64,000 nucleotides of DNA from Sphingomonas sp. LC-1. GTDB lineage: Bacteria > Pseudomonadota > Alphaproteobacteria > Sphingomonadales > Sphingomonadaceae. The notes beneath the pieces were generated by a model that ran no database searches, was not told the DNA's origin, and saw nothing but the letters and a program-made list of their open reading frames with translations. Location: positions 248,001 through 312,000 of the forward strand of contig NZ_JANZXB010000003.1 of the NCBI RefSeq assembly GCF_025371035.1. Reading direction: 5' to 3'. Position numbers and translations under genes: made by a program. This document shows, in pieces, positions 11,005 through 51,558 of the stretch. Numbering within the stretch: position 1 is the stretch's first letter; each line of letters opens with the position of its first letter.

Positions 11005-11136
11005 CCTTCCCTGCAAGGGGAGGGGGACCAGCGAAGCTGGTGGAGGGGTGTCGCTGGTCGCGAGACGGTCCAACCTCTCCATGGGCGACACCCCTCCGTC
11101 AGGCCTTCGGCCTGCCACCTCCCCTTGCAGGGGAGG
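11005..11136. repeat. Intergenic palindromic element, copy 1
   Basis: Occupies much of the 414-base gap between phaR and hslV. The outer ends are CTGCAAGGGGAGG and CCTCCCCTTGCAGGGGAGG, and inside lie GGTGGAGGGGTGTCG and CGACACCCCTCCGTC, which are complementary to each other. Similar elements occur at 39566-39703 and 51443-51558, with partial ones at 16982-17040 and 32634-32739. A half-copy of the 3182-3275 repeat core lies next to it at 10970-10991. I see no gene in the rest of this gap. Confidence 0.75.
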
Positions 11137-36689: not shown

Positions 36690-37487
36690 ATGACGATGCT
36701 GACCCTGAATGACGGCCGCGCCATGCCCCGACTGGGCCTTGGTACCTATCAGATCCCGGACTCGCAGGTCGCGCTGGTCGTGCGGCGCGGATGGGATACC
36801 GGCTATCGGCTGATCGATACCGCCGCCCTTTATGGCAATGAGCGCGGCGTAGGTGAGGGGTTGCGCGATACCGACGCCTTTCTGACCACAAAGCTGTGGA
36901 ACGACCGCCACCGCGACGCCGGGGCGGCGCTGGACGAAAGCCTGGCGCTGTTGGGAGTCGACGCGGTCGACCTGTATCTCATCCACTGGCCGGTTCCGGC
37001 CGAGGACGATTATGTCGAGGCCTGGCAAAGCCTGATCGCATTGCGTGAGGCGGGCAAGGCCAGGTCGATCGGCGTGTCGAACTTCCTGCCCGAACATCTC
37101 GACCGGATCATCGAGGCGACGGGTGTGGTGCCCGCCGTCAATCAGATCGAGCTGCATCCCCGGTTCCAGCAGCGCGAGGCGCGCGAATATCATGCGGCGA
37201 AGGGCATCGTGACCCAGAGCTGGAGCCCGCTGGGCCAGGGCGGCGAACTGCTGAAGGCGCCTGCGATCGCTGCGATCGCGGACAAGCATGGTCGCTCGGC
37301 GGCGCAGGTCGTGCTGGCCTGGCATCTGGCGCATGGCCTGTCGGTCATCCCCAAGGCGGCGGATGCGGCGCATATGGCGGACAATTTCGCCGCGATCGGA
37401 CTGACGCTGGACGCCGAGGATATGGCGGCGATCGATGCGCTGGACGATGAGGACGGCCGGATCGGGCCGGACCCGAGGACGATGTGA
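36690..37487 (+). CDS. Aldo/keto reductase
   Basis: A 265-residue AKR of the 2,5-diketo-gluconate reductase type. The catalytic tetrad is complete: Asp43 and Tyr48 in IDTAALYG, Lys68 in TTKLW and His99 in LIHWP; the NADPH-binding end IPKAADAAH is also present. It reduces carbonyls to alcohols with NADPH. It is transcribed divergently from the dedA-type gene. Confidence 0.92.
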   Translation: MTMLTLNDGRAMPRLGLGTYQIPDSQVALVVRRGWDTGYRLIDTAALYGNERGVGEGLRDTDAFLTTKLWNDRHRDAGAALDESLALLGVDAVDLYLIHWPVPAEDDYVEAWQSLIALREAGKARSIGVSNFLPEHLDRIIEATGVVPAVNQIELHPRFQQREAREYHAAKGIVTQSWSPLGQGGELLKAPAIAAIADKHGRSAAQVVLAWHLAHGLSVIPKAADAAHMADNFAAIGLTLDAEDMAAIDALDDEDGRIGPDPRTM

Positions 37488-37592: not shown

Positions 37593-37895
37593 ATGACACC
37601 GGATGAAGGGGCGTTGCTCGCCGATGTGTTTCGTCTTCTCGGCGAACCCAATCGGCTGAGGCTTGTGGTCGCGTGTCTGGACGGGCCGCGTACCGTGAGC
37701 GAGCTGACGCAGGAGGTAGGCGTGAGCCAGAGCCTGGTTTCGCAGCATCTGCGATTGCTGCGCGCCGGGCGTCTGCTCAAGCAGAGCCGGCAGGGACGCA
37801 ACGTCCTTTACGAGCTGCCCGACTGCCATATCCGCACCATGCTGACCAACATGATGGACCATGTGCTCGAACCTGAATCCGTAGATGAGGAGTGA
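37593..37895 (+). CDS. smtB: ArsR/SmtB-family metal sensor repressor, alpha-5 zinc site
   Basis: A 100-residue winged helix repressor. The DNA-recognition helix is VSQSLVSQHLRLLRAGRL. The C-terminal helix has Asp77, His79, His90 and Glu93, i.e. DxH-x10-HxxE, the alpha-5 site of SmtB and CzrA that binds Zn or Co across the dimer. The alpha-3 cysteine site of SmtB (ELCVCD) is absent. Metal binding would release the repressor from the operator just upstream. It is followed after five bases by a metallothionein gene, which fixes the assignment. No clear ribosome binding site precedes the ATG, so translation may be nearly leaderless. Confidence 0.93.
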   Translation: MTPDEGALLADVFRLLGEPNRLRLVVACLDGPRTVSELTQEVGVSQSLVSQHLRLLRAGRLLKQSRQGRNVLYELPDCHIRTMLTNMMDHVLEPESVDEE

Positions 37896-38154: not shown

Positions 38155-39552
38155 CTACGGAAGCGCTGACGCCGCCAGCTTCAAGTCCTCCACGAACCGC
38201 GCATATTCGACTTTCTTCGCCTCCGGATCGGGCAGGCGGAGCAGGAAGCTGGGGTGCACCGTGATGAACGCGGTGCCGCCATCGGGCAGGGTCAGCGCCC
38301 TGCCTCGCTCCCGCCCGATCGTCATCACCTTGCCGAACAGCGATCGCGCCGCCGTCGCCCCCAGCGCGACCGTCACCTGTGGCTGGATCAGCAGGCGTTC
38401 CTGCTCCACCCACCAGCGACAGGCCTGGATTTCGCCCGCATTGGGCGAGCTATGGATACGACGCTTGCCGCGCGGTTCGAATTTGAAATGCTTGACGGCG
38501 TTGGTGACATAAGCCCTCGCACGATCGATTCCGGCTTCCGCCACCGCGCGGTCGAAGACCTGTCCGGCCGGGCCGACAAAGGGATAGCCCGCCAGATCCT
38601 CCTGGTCGCCCGGCTGCTCGCCGACGAACATCAGCGCGGCGTCCACCGGGCCTTCGCCGAACACCGTCTGCGTTGCGGGCGCATAGAGCGGGCAGCGGGT
38701 GCAGCCCATCGCCTCGTCGCGGAGGGCCGCCCAAGCCGCTTGCGCATTGCCGCCGCGCCCCGAACGGACATCCACCTTGGCCGTGTCGATCATGCCCGTC
38801 TCCCGTGCCTGCGCGCCTGCGATCAGTTGCGGGACCAACGCGGTTTCCGGCATGTTTTTCCAGTATTTGCGCGGCATCTCCTTCAACATCGCGCCGATCT
38901 TCACGCGCGCGGGGTTGAAGATGCTGGCATAATAGGTCTTCCACACCGCCTCGGTCGGATCGCCCTCGGGCGCGTCGGCCTTGCTGGCACCCGGTCCTTC
39001 GGCAAGTGTCTTGCCGTCCCAATGGAGCGACACCTCGGGTGTCAGGATCGACCAGCGCATCGTGGTGAAGCGGTTGACGAAGAACGCCGCATTGGCCCGG
39101 ACGATATGATGCTCCGGTTCGAACCAGGCGACATAGCGCGGGCCGTCGTCATCCTCGGTCTCGCGGAAGCGCAGGAACGCCCGCATCTTGTGAATGTCGC
39201 GGCGCACCGCCTTGGCTAGTCGGTCGAGACGACGGACCAGCGGATCGGCCTGATCCTCGATCAGCCGAGGCTGCCGCCGCAGTCGGTCGAGCGCGGTGTG
39301 AAGCAGCGCGAAACGTTCCTGGTCGTTGGACAGGATCACGCTGCGCGCAAGGTCGAGAAAACCGCGCGAGACGGTGAAGCGCGGGGCGGGGGTGGTCGGA
39401 CTGTCGTCGGCCACCGAGCCGAACAGATCGGCAGGTTGATCGCCGACCTGCCATACGACCTGATCGGGCGGCACGCTGTCGGCGATCAGCCCGCGTGCCG
39501 CTTCACGCCAGGCGTCGAAGTCATCGGGCGCGGGCAGGGTTATGATGCGCAT
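38155..39552 (-). CDS. udgX: UdgX-type uracil-DNA glycosylase fused to a DUF4130-type domain
   Basis: A 465-residue two-domain protein. Residues 1 to about 255 are a DUF4130/TIGR03915-type domain that is often linked with repair radical SAM proteins. Residues 270-465 are an iron-sulfur UDG: CTRC (284-287), GEQPGDQED (311-319), the UdgX R loop KRRIHSSP with His367, and HPS (433-435). In UdgX the R-loop histidine forms a covalent bond with the abasic sugar, so the enzyme seals rather than just excises uracil lesions. The start at 39552 gives MRIITLPAPDDFDAW. The radical SAM partner gene lies upstream, beyond a hemerythrin gene. Confidence 0.9.
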   Translation of the reverse strand: MRIITLPAPDDFDAWREAARGLIADSVPPDQVVWQVGDQPADLFGSVADDSPTTPAPRFTVSRGFLDLARSVILSNDQERFALLHTALDRLRRQPRLIEDQADPLVRRLDRLAKAVRRDIHKMRAFLRFRETEDDDGPRYVAWFEPEHHIVRANAAFFVNRFTTMRWSILTPEVSLHWDGKTLAEGPGASKADAPEGDPTEAVWKTYYASIFNPARVKIGAMLKEMPRKYWKNMPETALVPQLIAGAQARETGMIDTAKVDVRSGRGGNAQAAWAALRDEAMGCTRCPLYAPATQTVFGEGPVDAALMFVGEQPGDQEDLAGYPFVGPAGQVFDRAVAEAGIDRARAYVTNAVKHFKFEPRGKRRIHSSPNAGEIQACRWWVEQERLLIQPQVTVALGATAARSLFGKVMTIGRERGRALTLPDGGTAFITVHPSFLLRLPDPEAKKVEYARFVEDLKLAASALP

Positions 39553-39565
39553 GGAAAGATCCCTA

Positions 39566-39703
39566 TTCCTCCCCCGTAAGGGGAGGGGAACCATGCGCAG
39601 CATGGTGGAAGGGTGTTACCGCTTGAAAAGGTACGCTTTGCTCGCGACCCGGAACACCCCTCCGTCTGACCTGCGGCCTGCCACCTCCCCTTGCAGGGGA
39701 GGA
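39566..39703. repeat. Intergenic palindromic element, copy 2
   Basis: Ends CCTCCCCCGTAAGGGGAGGGG and CCTCCCCTTGCAGGGGAGG; inside, GGTGGAAGGGTGTT and AACACCCCTCCGTC are complementary. It resembles the copy at 11005-11136. It lies between the UdgX gene and the hemerythrin gene and would split or attenuate their cotranscription. Confidence 0.75.
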
Positions 39704-39721
39704 ATTCAATGGCATCCGGTA

Positions 39722-40207
39722 TCAATCGCGTTCGTCTCCGCCGGGCGGGTTGGCCTTGGCCTCCTTCGCCTCGATGGGTTTGCGGGTTTCATAAATCTCC
39801 GCCAGTTTCTGCTCGGTCGCGTCGTCGAGCTCCTTCTCGGCGGCAGGGAACATCTCTTCCTCTTCCTCGTCGATATGATGTTCATAGCGATGACGCATGT
39901 GGAAGAATTTGGATTCCCATTCGTCCGAGGCGAAGTCGAGGTCCATCATCTCGCCGAGCAGATCGTCGATCTCCTTATGCTCGGACACCGAATGGCGGGC
40001 ATCGTCGCGCAGTTCGGGTTCGCCCAGCATGGTGGCGTAGAGCGATTCCTCCTCAGCGGCCGCGTGGCTCTGAATCTCGATACGAAAGGTCTCGAACAGC
40101 TTCTTGCGCTTGGCCCCGTCGCCCTTCAGCTCGGCCAGTTCCTTGAGCATTTCGCGCTGTTTGTCGTGATCGCGCTTCAGATCGGCATAGATGTCTGCGG
40201 TCGCCAT
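39722..40207 (-). CDS. Hemerythrin-like domain protein
   Basis: A 161-residue four-helix bundle protein. Metal ligands of the hemerythrin HHE type can be placed: His14 (KRDHDKQ), His48 and a Glu (SHAAAEEESLY), His77 (SEHKEIDD), His in the HMRHRYEHHIDEEEEEMF stretch. It would bind a diiron centre and O2, NO or peroxide. The acidic tail is unusual. The start at 40207 is preferred over a seven-residue extension. It sits between radical SAM and UdgX genes, which are normally neighbours. Confidence 0.88.
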   Translation of the reverse strand: MATADIYADLKRDHDKQREMLKELAELKGDGAKRKKLFETFRIEIQSHAAAEEESLYATMLGEPELRDDARHSVSEHKEIDDLLGEMMDLDFASDEWESKFFHMRHRYEHHIDEEEEEMFPAAEKELDDATEQKLAEIYETRKPIEAKEAKANPPGGDERD

Positions 40208-40274
40208 GATCCTGTCTCCTTCGCGCATCCAACACCGAAGCGCGGCGGTCGTTTCACCCGCGAATCACTCTCAC

Positions 40275-41519
40275 TCAGCCGAAAAGTTCGAGCTGTTTGA
40301 CCTGCGGCTTGACCAGCGGCCGGAGGTCCGCCTGCTCGGCCAGCGCGACGGGCCACCAGTCCTCCGCGATCAGGAAAGGCCGCAATTTGGCGATCGACAC
40401 GGTCAGCCGCGCGATATCCTCCAGCCGCAATCGCCGCCATTTGCGGCTGGCGATGATCCGGTCCACCGCCTTCACCCCGAGACCCGGCACGCGGAGCAGC
40501 ATTTCGCGCGGCGCGCGGTTCACATCGACCGGGAAATGCTGACGGAATTTGAGCGCCCAAGCGAGCTTGGGATCGATGTCGAGCGGCAGCATTCCCGTCG
40601 CCTCATCGGCGGCGGCGGCCACTTCGCGCGGCTGATAGTCGTAGAAGCGCATGAGCCAGTCGGACTGGTAAAGCCGGTGCTCGCGCATCAGGGGCGGCCG
40701 TTGCAGCGGCAATACGGCCGACGCATCGGGGATCGGACTGAACGCCGAATAATAGACGCGACGCAGGCGGAAACGGTCATAGAGCGTCGCCGCGCGCCCG
40801 ACGATGTCGCGGTCGGTCGCGGCGTCCGCACCAACGATCATCTGGGTGGACTGGCCGGCGGGGGCGAAGCCGGGGGCGGACTTGTACTTCTTCGCCGCAT
40901 CCTGCCGATCGTCGATCGCGGTCTTCACCTCCGCCATCGCGCCTTCGATCCGGGCGGCGTCCTTTTCGGGCGCGAGCCGCTTCAGCCCGCCGACCGTGGG
41001 CAATTCGACATTGATCGACACGCGATCGGCATGAACGCCCGCCAGCCGCACCAATTCGGGATCGGCATCGGGGATCGTCTTCAGATGGATATAGCCACGA
41101 AAGCCATGATCCTCCCGCAGGGCCCGCGCGACCTCGACGATCTGCTCCATCGTATAGTTGGACGATTTGATGATGCCCGAGGAGAGGAACAGCCCCTCGA
41201 TATAATTGCGCCGGTAAAAGGCGAGGGTGAGGTTCACCACCTCCTGCGCGGTGAAGCGCGCGCGGCGGACGTTGGACGACTTGCGATTGATGCAATAATG
41301 GCAGTCGAAGATGCAGCTATTGGTCAGCAGGATCTTCAACAGCGAGATGCATCGGCCATCGGGCGCATAGGCGTGGCAAATGCCCATCCCTTCGGTCGAG
41401 CCGATCCCCTTGCCGTCGCGGCTGTCGCGCTTGGACGTGCCCGAAGACGCGCAGGAGGCGTCATATTTTGCGGCGTCCGCCAGGATCGCCAGCTTCTCAC
41501 GAGTGTCGAGTTGCGCCAT
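40275..41519 (-). CDS. Putative DNA modification/repair radical SAM protein
   Basis: A 414-residue protein of the repair-linked radical SAM family (TIGR03916-type). The iron-sulfur motif CIFDCHYC has cysteines 69, 73 and 76, and the protein begins MAQLDTREKLAILADAAKYD with further cysteines at 23, 48 and 57. The C-terminal part has a helix-hairpin-helix element (LLRVPGLGVKAVDRIIASR) suited to DNA binding. Its family is regularly found next to UdgX/DUF4130 proteins. A LexA-type box ends two bases before the chosen ATG; a second in-frame ATG at 41543 would place the box inside the gene, which makes it less likely. Its chemical reaction is unknown. Confidence 0.88.
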   Translation of the reverse strand: MAQLDTREKLAILADAAKYDASCASSGTSKRDSRDGKGIGSTEGMGICHAYAPDGRCISLLKILLTNSCIFDCHYCINRKSSNVRRARFTAQEVVNLTLAFYRRNYIEGLFLSSGIIKSSNYTMEQIVEVARALREDHGFRGYIHLKTIPDADPELVRLAGVHADRVSINVELPTVGGLKRLAPEKDAARIEGAMAEVKTAIDDRQDAAKKYKSAPGFAPAGQSTQMIVGADAATDRDIVGRAATLYDRFRLRRVYYSAFSPIPDASAVLPLQRPPLMREHRLYQSDWLMRFYDYQPREVAAAADEATGMLPLDIDPKLAWALKFRQHFPVDVNRAPREMLLRVPGLGVKAVDRIIASRKWRRLRLEDIARLTVSIAKLRPFLIAEDWWPVALAEQADLRPLVKPQVKQLELFG

Positions 41520-41521
41520 TT

Positions 41522-41536
41522 GTTCGATATACGTTC
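41522..41536 (-). promoter_or_regulatory. Alphaproteobacterial LexA (SOS) box
   Basis: GTTC-N7-GTTC on the plus strand (GTTC 41522-41525 and 41533-41536), i.e. GAAC-N7-GAAC in the direction of the radical SAM gene. This direct-repeat is the LexA target of Rhizobiales, Caulobacter and relatives. It is placed immediately before the start codon of the DNA-repair radical SAM gene. A looser GAAC-N5-GAAC follows at 41549-41561. Confidence 0.75.
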
Positions 41537-41626
41537 TTGGCATGTCGTGAACAAGACGAACGCGGCCGGTCATCGTCCGTACAGCCCGACTGGTCCAGAC
41601 ATATTCGCTCCGGGAGGAGATGGGCG

Positions 41627-42340
41627 ATGCACAAGGTAATGATCGGGCTGGCGTTATGCGGAATGACGGCCCCGCTGGCCGCGCAGACGGTGGCGAGCCA
41701 CGCCAAGACGGCGGATTATGAATTCGCCTATCGTTACCCCGCCGCCGTCGCGCGCATCCCCGCCTTGAAGCGCACGCTCGATGGCGAAGCGGCCAATCTC
41801 CGACGGAAAACGGCGCACGACGCCGCATCGGATCGGCGCGAGGCCAAGGCTTCCGGCTTTCCGTTCCGGCCCTATTCCTATGAAAAGACGTGGAAGGTCG
41901 TGACCGACACGCCGCGTTTCCTCAGCCTGTCGAGCGACAGCTATGACTATACGGGCGGGGCGCATGGGCAGCCTGCTTCGTCGGCGCTGCTCTGGGACAA
42001 GGCGGCGGGGCGGCGGTTGGACACCAAGGCGGTTTTCGTCTCGCTCGCCGCGCTGCAAAGCGCGACGCGGATCGATTATTGCGCGCGTCTTCGGATCGAA
42101 CAGCGGCGGCGCAATCAGGGCGAGGGCTCTTCGATGAATGTCTGTCCGCCGGTCAAGGATCTGACCATATTGCTGGGATCGACCAACGGCCGCGCGATCG
42201 ACCGCATCGGATTGCTTGCCGACCCTTATGTCGCGGGCTCCTATGCCGAGGGCAGCTATGAGGTGACGTTGCCGGTCACGCGGGCGATCGCCGGGGCGGT
42301 GAAGCCCGCCTATCGCGCAGCCTTCGCCCTGGGGCGTTAA
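41627..42340 (+). CDS. DUF3298/DUF4163 secreted protein
   Basis: A 237-residue exported protein (signal peptide to LAAQT). The DUF4163-like N-terminal part (about residues 20-130) precedes a DUF3298 domain with the signature SYDYTGGAHGQP. Related domains occur in RsiV and PdaC-like proteins of envelope or cell-wall function. The ATG at 41627 follows GGGAGGAG. It diverges from the radical SAM gene. Confidence 0.8.
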   Translation: MHKVMIGLALCGMTAPLAAQTVASHAKTADYEFAYRYPAAVARIPALKRTLDGEAANLRRKTAHDAASDRREAKASGFPFRPYSYEKTWKVVTDTPRFLSLSSDSYDYTGGAHGQPASSALLWDKAAGRRLDTKAVFVSLAALQSATRIDYCARLRIEQRRRNQGEGSSMNVCPPVKDLTILLGSTNGRAIDRIGLLADPYVAGSYAEGSYEVTLPVTRAIAGAVKPAYRAAFALGR

Positions 42341-51442: not shown

Positions 51443-51558
51443 TCCTCCCCTAGAAGGGGAGGTGGCACGCCGCAGGCCCGGCGGAGGGGTGTCGCGTTGT
51501 CGAGGGGGGAACACCCCTCAGGCGCGCAACGCGCGCCACCTCTCCTCGCAGGGAAGGA
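51443..51558. repeat. Intergenic palindromic element, copy 3
   Basis: CCTCCCCTAGAAGGGGAGG at one end and CCTCTCCTCGCAGGGAAGG at the other, with GGCGGAGGGGTGTCG and AACACCCCTCAGGCG complementary inside. It is the third clear copy of this family (11005, 39566). It separates the RND operon from the DUF445 gene. Confidence 0.75.

Follow-up and report, generated by a model that had tools for sequence, protein, structure and literature searches.

Control by the SOS response of the uracil-DNA glycosylase (UDG)-type repair system that is treated here has been reported in Verrucomicrobia and Alphaproteobacteria and inferred for Bacteroidetes (PMC8565304, in the parts available to us, as holds for all PMC-numbered papers below); there, da Rocha 2008 is cited for Caulobacter and Erill 2016 for Verrucomicrobia, and GTTC-N7-GTTC is given as the alphaproteobacterial LexA motif. 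The association of DUF4130 with SplB-like radical S-adenosylmethionine (SAM) proteins and with UDGs was noted in 2013, the domain being called a predicted mutagenesis-related enzyme (PMC3765255), and structures of UdgX are available for Mycobacterium smegmatis (PDB 6ail and others; PMC10359453). Here we analyse a locus of Sphingomonas sp. LC-1 in which a LexA box precedes a radical SAM gene of the TIGR03916 family, a hemerythrin gene and a gene for a DUF4130-UdgX fusion; it lies in a stretch of 64,000 nucleotides (nt) that we call the window (contig NZ_JANZXB010000003.1, positions 248,001 to 312,000). We put the probability at roughly 0.9 that the radical SAM gene and the fusion form a LexA-controlled (SOS) operon, with the hemerythrin gene as a later insertion. 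The layout, i.e. a box 2 nt before the radical SAM gene and then hemerythrin and the fusion, had been given in an initial annotation of this DNA and was borne out (Table 1).

We take COG4277 to be this radical SAM family and COG1573 to be the UDG family. The locus then has the same gene pair and the same kind of control as the COG1573-COG4277 operon, and it differs from that operon, as described in the available parts of PMC8565304, by the hemerythrin insert and by an operator that lies on the -10 element with a predicted leaderless start. The domain association of DUF4130 is the one found in the corresponding parts of PMC3765255, whereas UdgX, compared with the protein of M. smegmatis, is here fused behind DUF4130 and encoded in a putative LexA-boxed operon. 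SOS control of the gene pair is thus already on record, and what is new is the promoter layout and the corrected reading of the hemerythrin gene. In the literature searched we found nothing on UdgX together with radical SAM proteins or on rSAM_link_UDG, and nothing relevant on LexA with the Sphingomonas GTTC motif; the available parts of PMC10776899 (on UdgX) and PMC9578287 (on the SOS response) likewise hold nothing on control of the radical SAM gene.

The LexA box and its conservation

By itself the bare motif proves nothing, as the window contains 2 exact copies of GAAC-N7-GAAC where 1.37 are expected and 42 of 100 shuffles reach that number; it is conservation that makes the box real. Among 199 genomes of the family, 133 have a match to TIGR03916, and the 127 that exceed the cut-off (the window's genome included) were all used, leaving out five short weak matches and one partial gene. 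An exact GAAC-N7-GAAC stands directly 5' of the radical SAM gene in 120 of these loci, and the nearest in-frame start codon follows 2 nt after it in 105 of the 127 (1, 3, 4, 10, 13, 14 or 17 nt for the other 15 boxes). Five divergent family members have GTTC-N7-GTTC upstream instead, which amounts to one change on the tree, and the remaining two loci have a box with one mismatch, as judged by eye. Taken together, a box in either orientation is present at 125 of the 127 loci, against a mean of 0.69 and a maximum of 3 in 100 shuffles of the upstream regions. (L142 and L159, whose radical SAM proteins fell outside the length limits, are missing from the tree, and the two one-mismatch rows were not counted when box orientation was mapped onto it.)

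The same holds beyond the family. The box was found at 77 of 80 named loci, a set that overlaps in part with the 127 and consists mostly of sphingomonads but also includes Brevundimonas, Mesorhizobium and Rhizobium; the three misses are two one-mismatch boxes and a metagenome-assembled genome (MAG) of Luteibacter. In a sample of 398 genomes of the phylum the radical SAM gene was present in 84 (E-value 1e-60), of which the 73 additional ones were analysed, and the alphaproteobacterial box lies within 200 nt in each of the 41 genomes from other families of the class and in each of the 3 further genomes of the genus. Conservation in close relatives had been set beforehand as the test by which the SOS proposal could be refuted, and with 120/127 and 41/41 it came out in favour of that proposal.

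Outside the class the motif is a different one. The 29 genomes that belong to other classes of the phylum have no copy of the alphaproteobacterial box at this gene, whereas CTGT-N8-ACAG is present in 17 and CTG-N10-CAG in 22 (shuffle maxima 2, 1 and 6, respectively). The latter two patterns represent the LexA motif of beta- and gammaproteobacteria. In Caballeronia, for instance, CTGTATAAACATACAG begins 29 nt before the radical SAM ATG. Similar LexA boxes are given for E. coli and Pseudomonas in the available parts of PMC9578287. That one and the same gene has a LexA motif which differs from class to class is hard to explain save by selection for SOS control, and because the site is kept across the sampled alphaproteobacteria and replaced by the other LexA motif in most of the sampled genomes of other classes, the radical SAM gene very likely encodes a core DNA-damage enzyme.

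The genome itself supplies a further line of evidence. It contains 129 copies of the box, against 58 of the reversed pattern as a control, and a box followed after 1-3 nt by an ATG is seen in 10 places, compared with 0 for the control. Six of these 10 lead into open reading frames (ORFs) of at most 50 amino acids; one candidate, at G000:C21:9417, was rejected since only short ORFs lie behind it. Two overlapping boxes stand directly before lexA (identified by family match), and among the first 30 of the 129 copies, others precede genes that we identify, by their translations, as recA, dinB and rmuC. LexA of this genome therefore very likely reads GAAC-N7-GAAC, the motif shared by its lexA and recA genes. 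With this lineage-specific operator situated at the promoter, kept in relatives and swapped for another motif in other classes, the SOS control that the initial annotation had proposed from the box is, as far as sequence can tell, strongly supported.

Alignment of the 120 boxes yielded a promoter of the form CTTGxC, 17 bp and TATA, the last of which falls within the box; upstream of the -35 element no sequence conservation is seen. Transcription is expected to begin at the seventh base after the -10 element, which is the A of the start codon, so that a leaderless mRNA is predicted. Tetramers resembling a Shine-Dalgarno sequence, which accompany 28 of the 105 starts of radical SAM genes and 39 of the 181 starts of UdgX genes, are uninformative on this point; the box itself can supply AGGA. 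In the proposed mechanism, the operator to which LexA would bind includes the -10 element and stops 2 nt short of the start codon, and LexA, given this overlap, would block RNA polymerase directly; upon damage, cleavage of LexA would allow transcription from the radical SAM start codon, and the DUF4130-UdgX gene would follow on the same transcript. An operator on the -10 element, combined with a start codon that is the predicted transcription start, would make for a compact design for damage-inducible expression, and no description of such a leaderless LexA-operator layout was found in the literature searched, which misses most subscription papers.

The radical SAM protein and the DUF4130-UdgX fusion

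The radical SAM protein matches TIGR03916 with 556.5 bits (cut-off 343.5) and contains the CX3CX2C motif. Six cysteines are invariant in 70 aligned rows, namely those of the triad (C69, C73, C76) and C23, C48 and C57; Caballeronia and two Bacteroidota retain the latter three, a Gemmatirosa relative has lost them, and they may, as a guess, hint at a second Fe-S cluster. The best matches of the structural model (predicted local distance difference test score 87, with the C23-C48 stretch poorly modelled) are lipoyl synthase and HydE, with tied scores, and SplB (spore photoproduct lyase) is not among the matches listed (two lists of 50 each). By sequence, none of the solved relatives was convincing. 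The C-terminal part yielded matches to ComEA and RuvA that are not significant (E-values 0.04-0.8) and that would fit a helix-hairpin-helix. We agree with the initial annotation that the chemistry of this protein is not known.

In the case of the fusion, the mechanical ORF start (39603) lies inside a repeat element, and we take the start to be the ATG at 39552, as suggested by the domain match and by relatives. Both halves score well above their cut-offs, i.e. UdgX with 318.8 bits for TIGR03914 (cut-off 189.95) and DUF4130 with 133.5 bits for PF13566 (cut-off 27) and 214.8 bits for TIGR03915 (cut-off 112.25). Aligned to 6ajo, the UdgX part has its GEQPG, KRRIH-loop and HPS motifs at 311, 363 and 433, and the cross-linking histidine is present in 171 of 173 aligned fusions. 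The structure matches listed with DUF4130 in view were filled by UDG entries. Uracil would be excised by the UdgX domain, which would link itself covalently to the abasic site, and the radical SAM and DUF4130 proteins may process the lesion or the cross-link through radical chemistry.

The radical SAM protein and DUF4130 look like the constant core of the system. A more far-reaching proposal, which we offer tentatively and consider rather doubtful, is that this core is a DNA-damage enzyme in its own right, that C23, C48 and C57 hold a second Fe-S cluster as in lipoyl-synthase-like enzymes, that the enzyme acts by radical chemistry, with damaged DNA or a DNA-protein cross-link as its substrate, that LexA control was acquired separately in several classes, and that UdgX joined it as a module for targeting or capping. 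With the radical SAM protein very likely a DNA-damage enzyme, its unsolved repair activity becomes directly testable.

The hemerythrin gene and rival explanations

The hemerythrin gene product matches PF01814 with 61.8 bits (cut-off 25.3) and is the sole match to that family in the genome; an assignment as the ribosome-binding persister protein PA2171 (NF053874) was rejected, as the score of 54 bits is far from the cut-off of 190. The initial annotation had seen in it a possible guard or sensor of O2/NO for the Fe-S enzymes, i.e. a working part of the group that is SOS-induced together with them. Such a role would fit the shared strand and the tight spacing to UdgX in several relatives, the confinement of all 10 family loci with hemerythrin between the radical SAM and UdgX genes to one part of the tree (29 rows), its proximity to the radical SAM gene in 4 of the 6 genus members that have the latter (e.g. 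L120, and L322 and L323 with other DNA in between) and its position after UdgX in 1 of the 41 class genomes outside the family (L361). Homologues (>145 bits) occur in 86 of the 199 family genomes and are commoner where the radical SAM gene is present (70/127 vs 16/72, Fisher p 7e-6, ancestry uncorrected), and a weak functional tie may exist. Against this stand the 117 of 127 loci that lack hemerythrin in the slot, the same-genus genomes L144 and L324 that lack it there too, and the FastTree tree, which calls for at least 5 gains or losses. Moreover, only 10 of the 70 genomes with both genes have them within 1.3 kb, the other 60 having them at least 72 kb apart or on different contigs, and none of the upstream regions examined (those of the best-scoring 30 of the 86 genomes, L251-L280) contains a LexA box. 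With a general-stress motif in 17 of these 30 (see below), the guard or sensor role is not supported and appears unlikely to us; the preferred reading, that of an operon of the radical SAM gene and the fusion, would treat hemerythrin as a later, lineage-restricted insertion, probably with a general-stress promoter of its own. The case warns against inferring function from an inserted neighbour.

The motif in question resembles GGAAC-N16/17-CGTT, the type of the EcfG promoter in Sphingomonas and Sphingopyxis (PMC6599016, PMC7083833; the word hemerythrin is absent from the available main texts of both). Its strict form occurs in 6 of the 30 regions (shuffle maximum 1), and a relaxed form, which was chosen after looking at the sequences, in 17, including 6 of the 10 slot genes, against a shuffle mean of 0.39 (maximum 3), 1 for the reversed and 3 for the complemented pattern. 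This raises the alternative that the group has two inputs, with LexA driving the whole and an EcfG promoter before hemerythrin also driving UdgX, so that general stress and DNA damage would both be answered. The motif in those 6 slot loci, the NepR match (36.9 bits; part of the EcfG system) in this genome and the position of UdgX close behind hemerythrin in several relatives speak for it, while the window's own copy deviates from the consensus at both ends (GAAAC for GGAAC, TGTT for CGTT) and a pair of palindromes resembling repetitive extragenic palindromic (REP) elements intervenes before UdgX; we would give this arrangement a minority chance. Nothing linking hemerythrin to the EcfG general stress response was found in the literature searched, and in sphingomonads this subfamily may have gone unnoticed as a general-stress gene. 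Where the hemerythrin and radical SAM genes share a contig, they are ~72-110 kb apart in 26 of 52 cases, as if this were an old arrangement.

That the box is a chance match or the site of another regulator would agree with its unremarkable frequency in the window, but it is kept at one place across family and class and another LexA motif takes its place in other classes, which makes this explanation extremely improbable. Several observations do weigh against an SOS operon of the radical SAM gene and the fusion. Neither motif was found in 7 of the 29 genomes of other classes, nor did two Bacteroidota plasmid loci, the divergent Gemmatirosa gene or the Luteibacter MAG show a fitting LexA motif among those tried. 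The terms radical SAM and uracil are absent from what was available of the main text, supplementary tables excluded, of a 2025 study of the Caulobacter SOS response (PMC12700426). In the 5 family genomes in which the fusion is not found within 4.5 kb downstream, it lacks an exact box of its own, and among 43 loci with more than 200 bp between the radical SAM and UdgX genes a box lies in the 400 nt ahead of UdgX in a single case; the SOS site is thus that of the radical SAM promoter. In this genome the REP-like element, which as RNA (39550-39725) is predicted to fold with -90 kcal/mol (z -6.15), could separate UdgX from the SOS transcript.

Features of the locus and its surroundings

Table 1. 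Features of the locus (window coordinates)
Feature	Position	Strand	Remarks
-35 element TTGTTC	41549..41554	minus	17 bp ahead of -10; consensus C65 T89 T45 G87 x C61 (percent, 120 aligned boxes)
-10 element TATATC	41526..41531	minus	inside operator; T97 A98 T75 A82 percent
LexA operator GAAC-N7-GAAC, GAACGTATATCGAAC	41522..41536	minus	exact match; 2 nt (AA), then ATG at 41519
Radical SAM gene, TIGR03916 (rSAM_link_UDG)	40275..41519	minus	CX3CX2C at C69-C73-C76; invariant C23, C48, C57
EcfG-like motif GAAAC-N16-TGTT ahead of hemerythrin gene	40231..40255	minus	neither end matches the consensus fully
Hemerythrin HHE gene, inserted between two repair genes	39722..40207	minus	PF01814
REP-like palindrome pair between hemerythrin and UdgX genes	39568..39702	minus	may weaken read-through
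DUF4130 (TIGR03915)-UdgX (TIGR03914) fusion	38155..39552	minus	with GEQPG, KRRIH, HPSFLLR

The slot between the radical SAM and UdgX genes holds differing DNA or genes depending on the relative (e.g. L109, L079, L104, L124 and L146), and in some relatives little DNA; in the genomes of the phylum sample UdgX was searched for over ~3 kb downstream, some contigs ending earlier. REP-like palindrome pairs (CCTCCCCT-N4-GGGGAGG) are found in the window at 11005-11136, 39568-39702 and 51444-51557, 95-116 bp from start to start, and with up to 2 mismatches the motif occurs at 7 places (14 matches, both strands), where 0.33 are expected. Divergently oriented to the group is a gene with a PdaC domain (64.4 bits; 41627-42340), which has its intergenic region in common with the LexA box, and on the other side the group is flanked by genes for an ArsR-type regulator (37593-37895) and an aldo/keto reductase (36693-37487).

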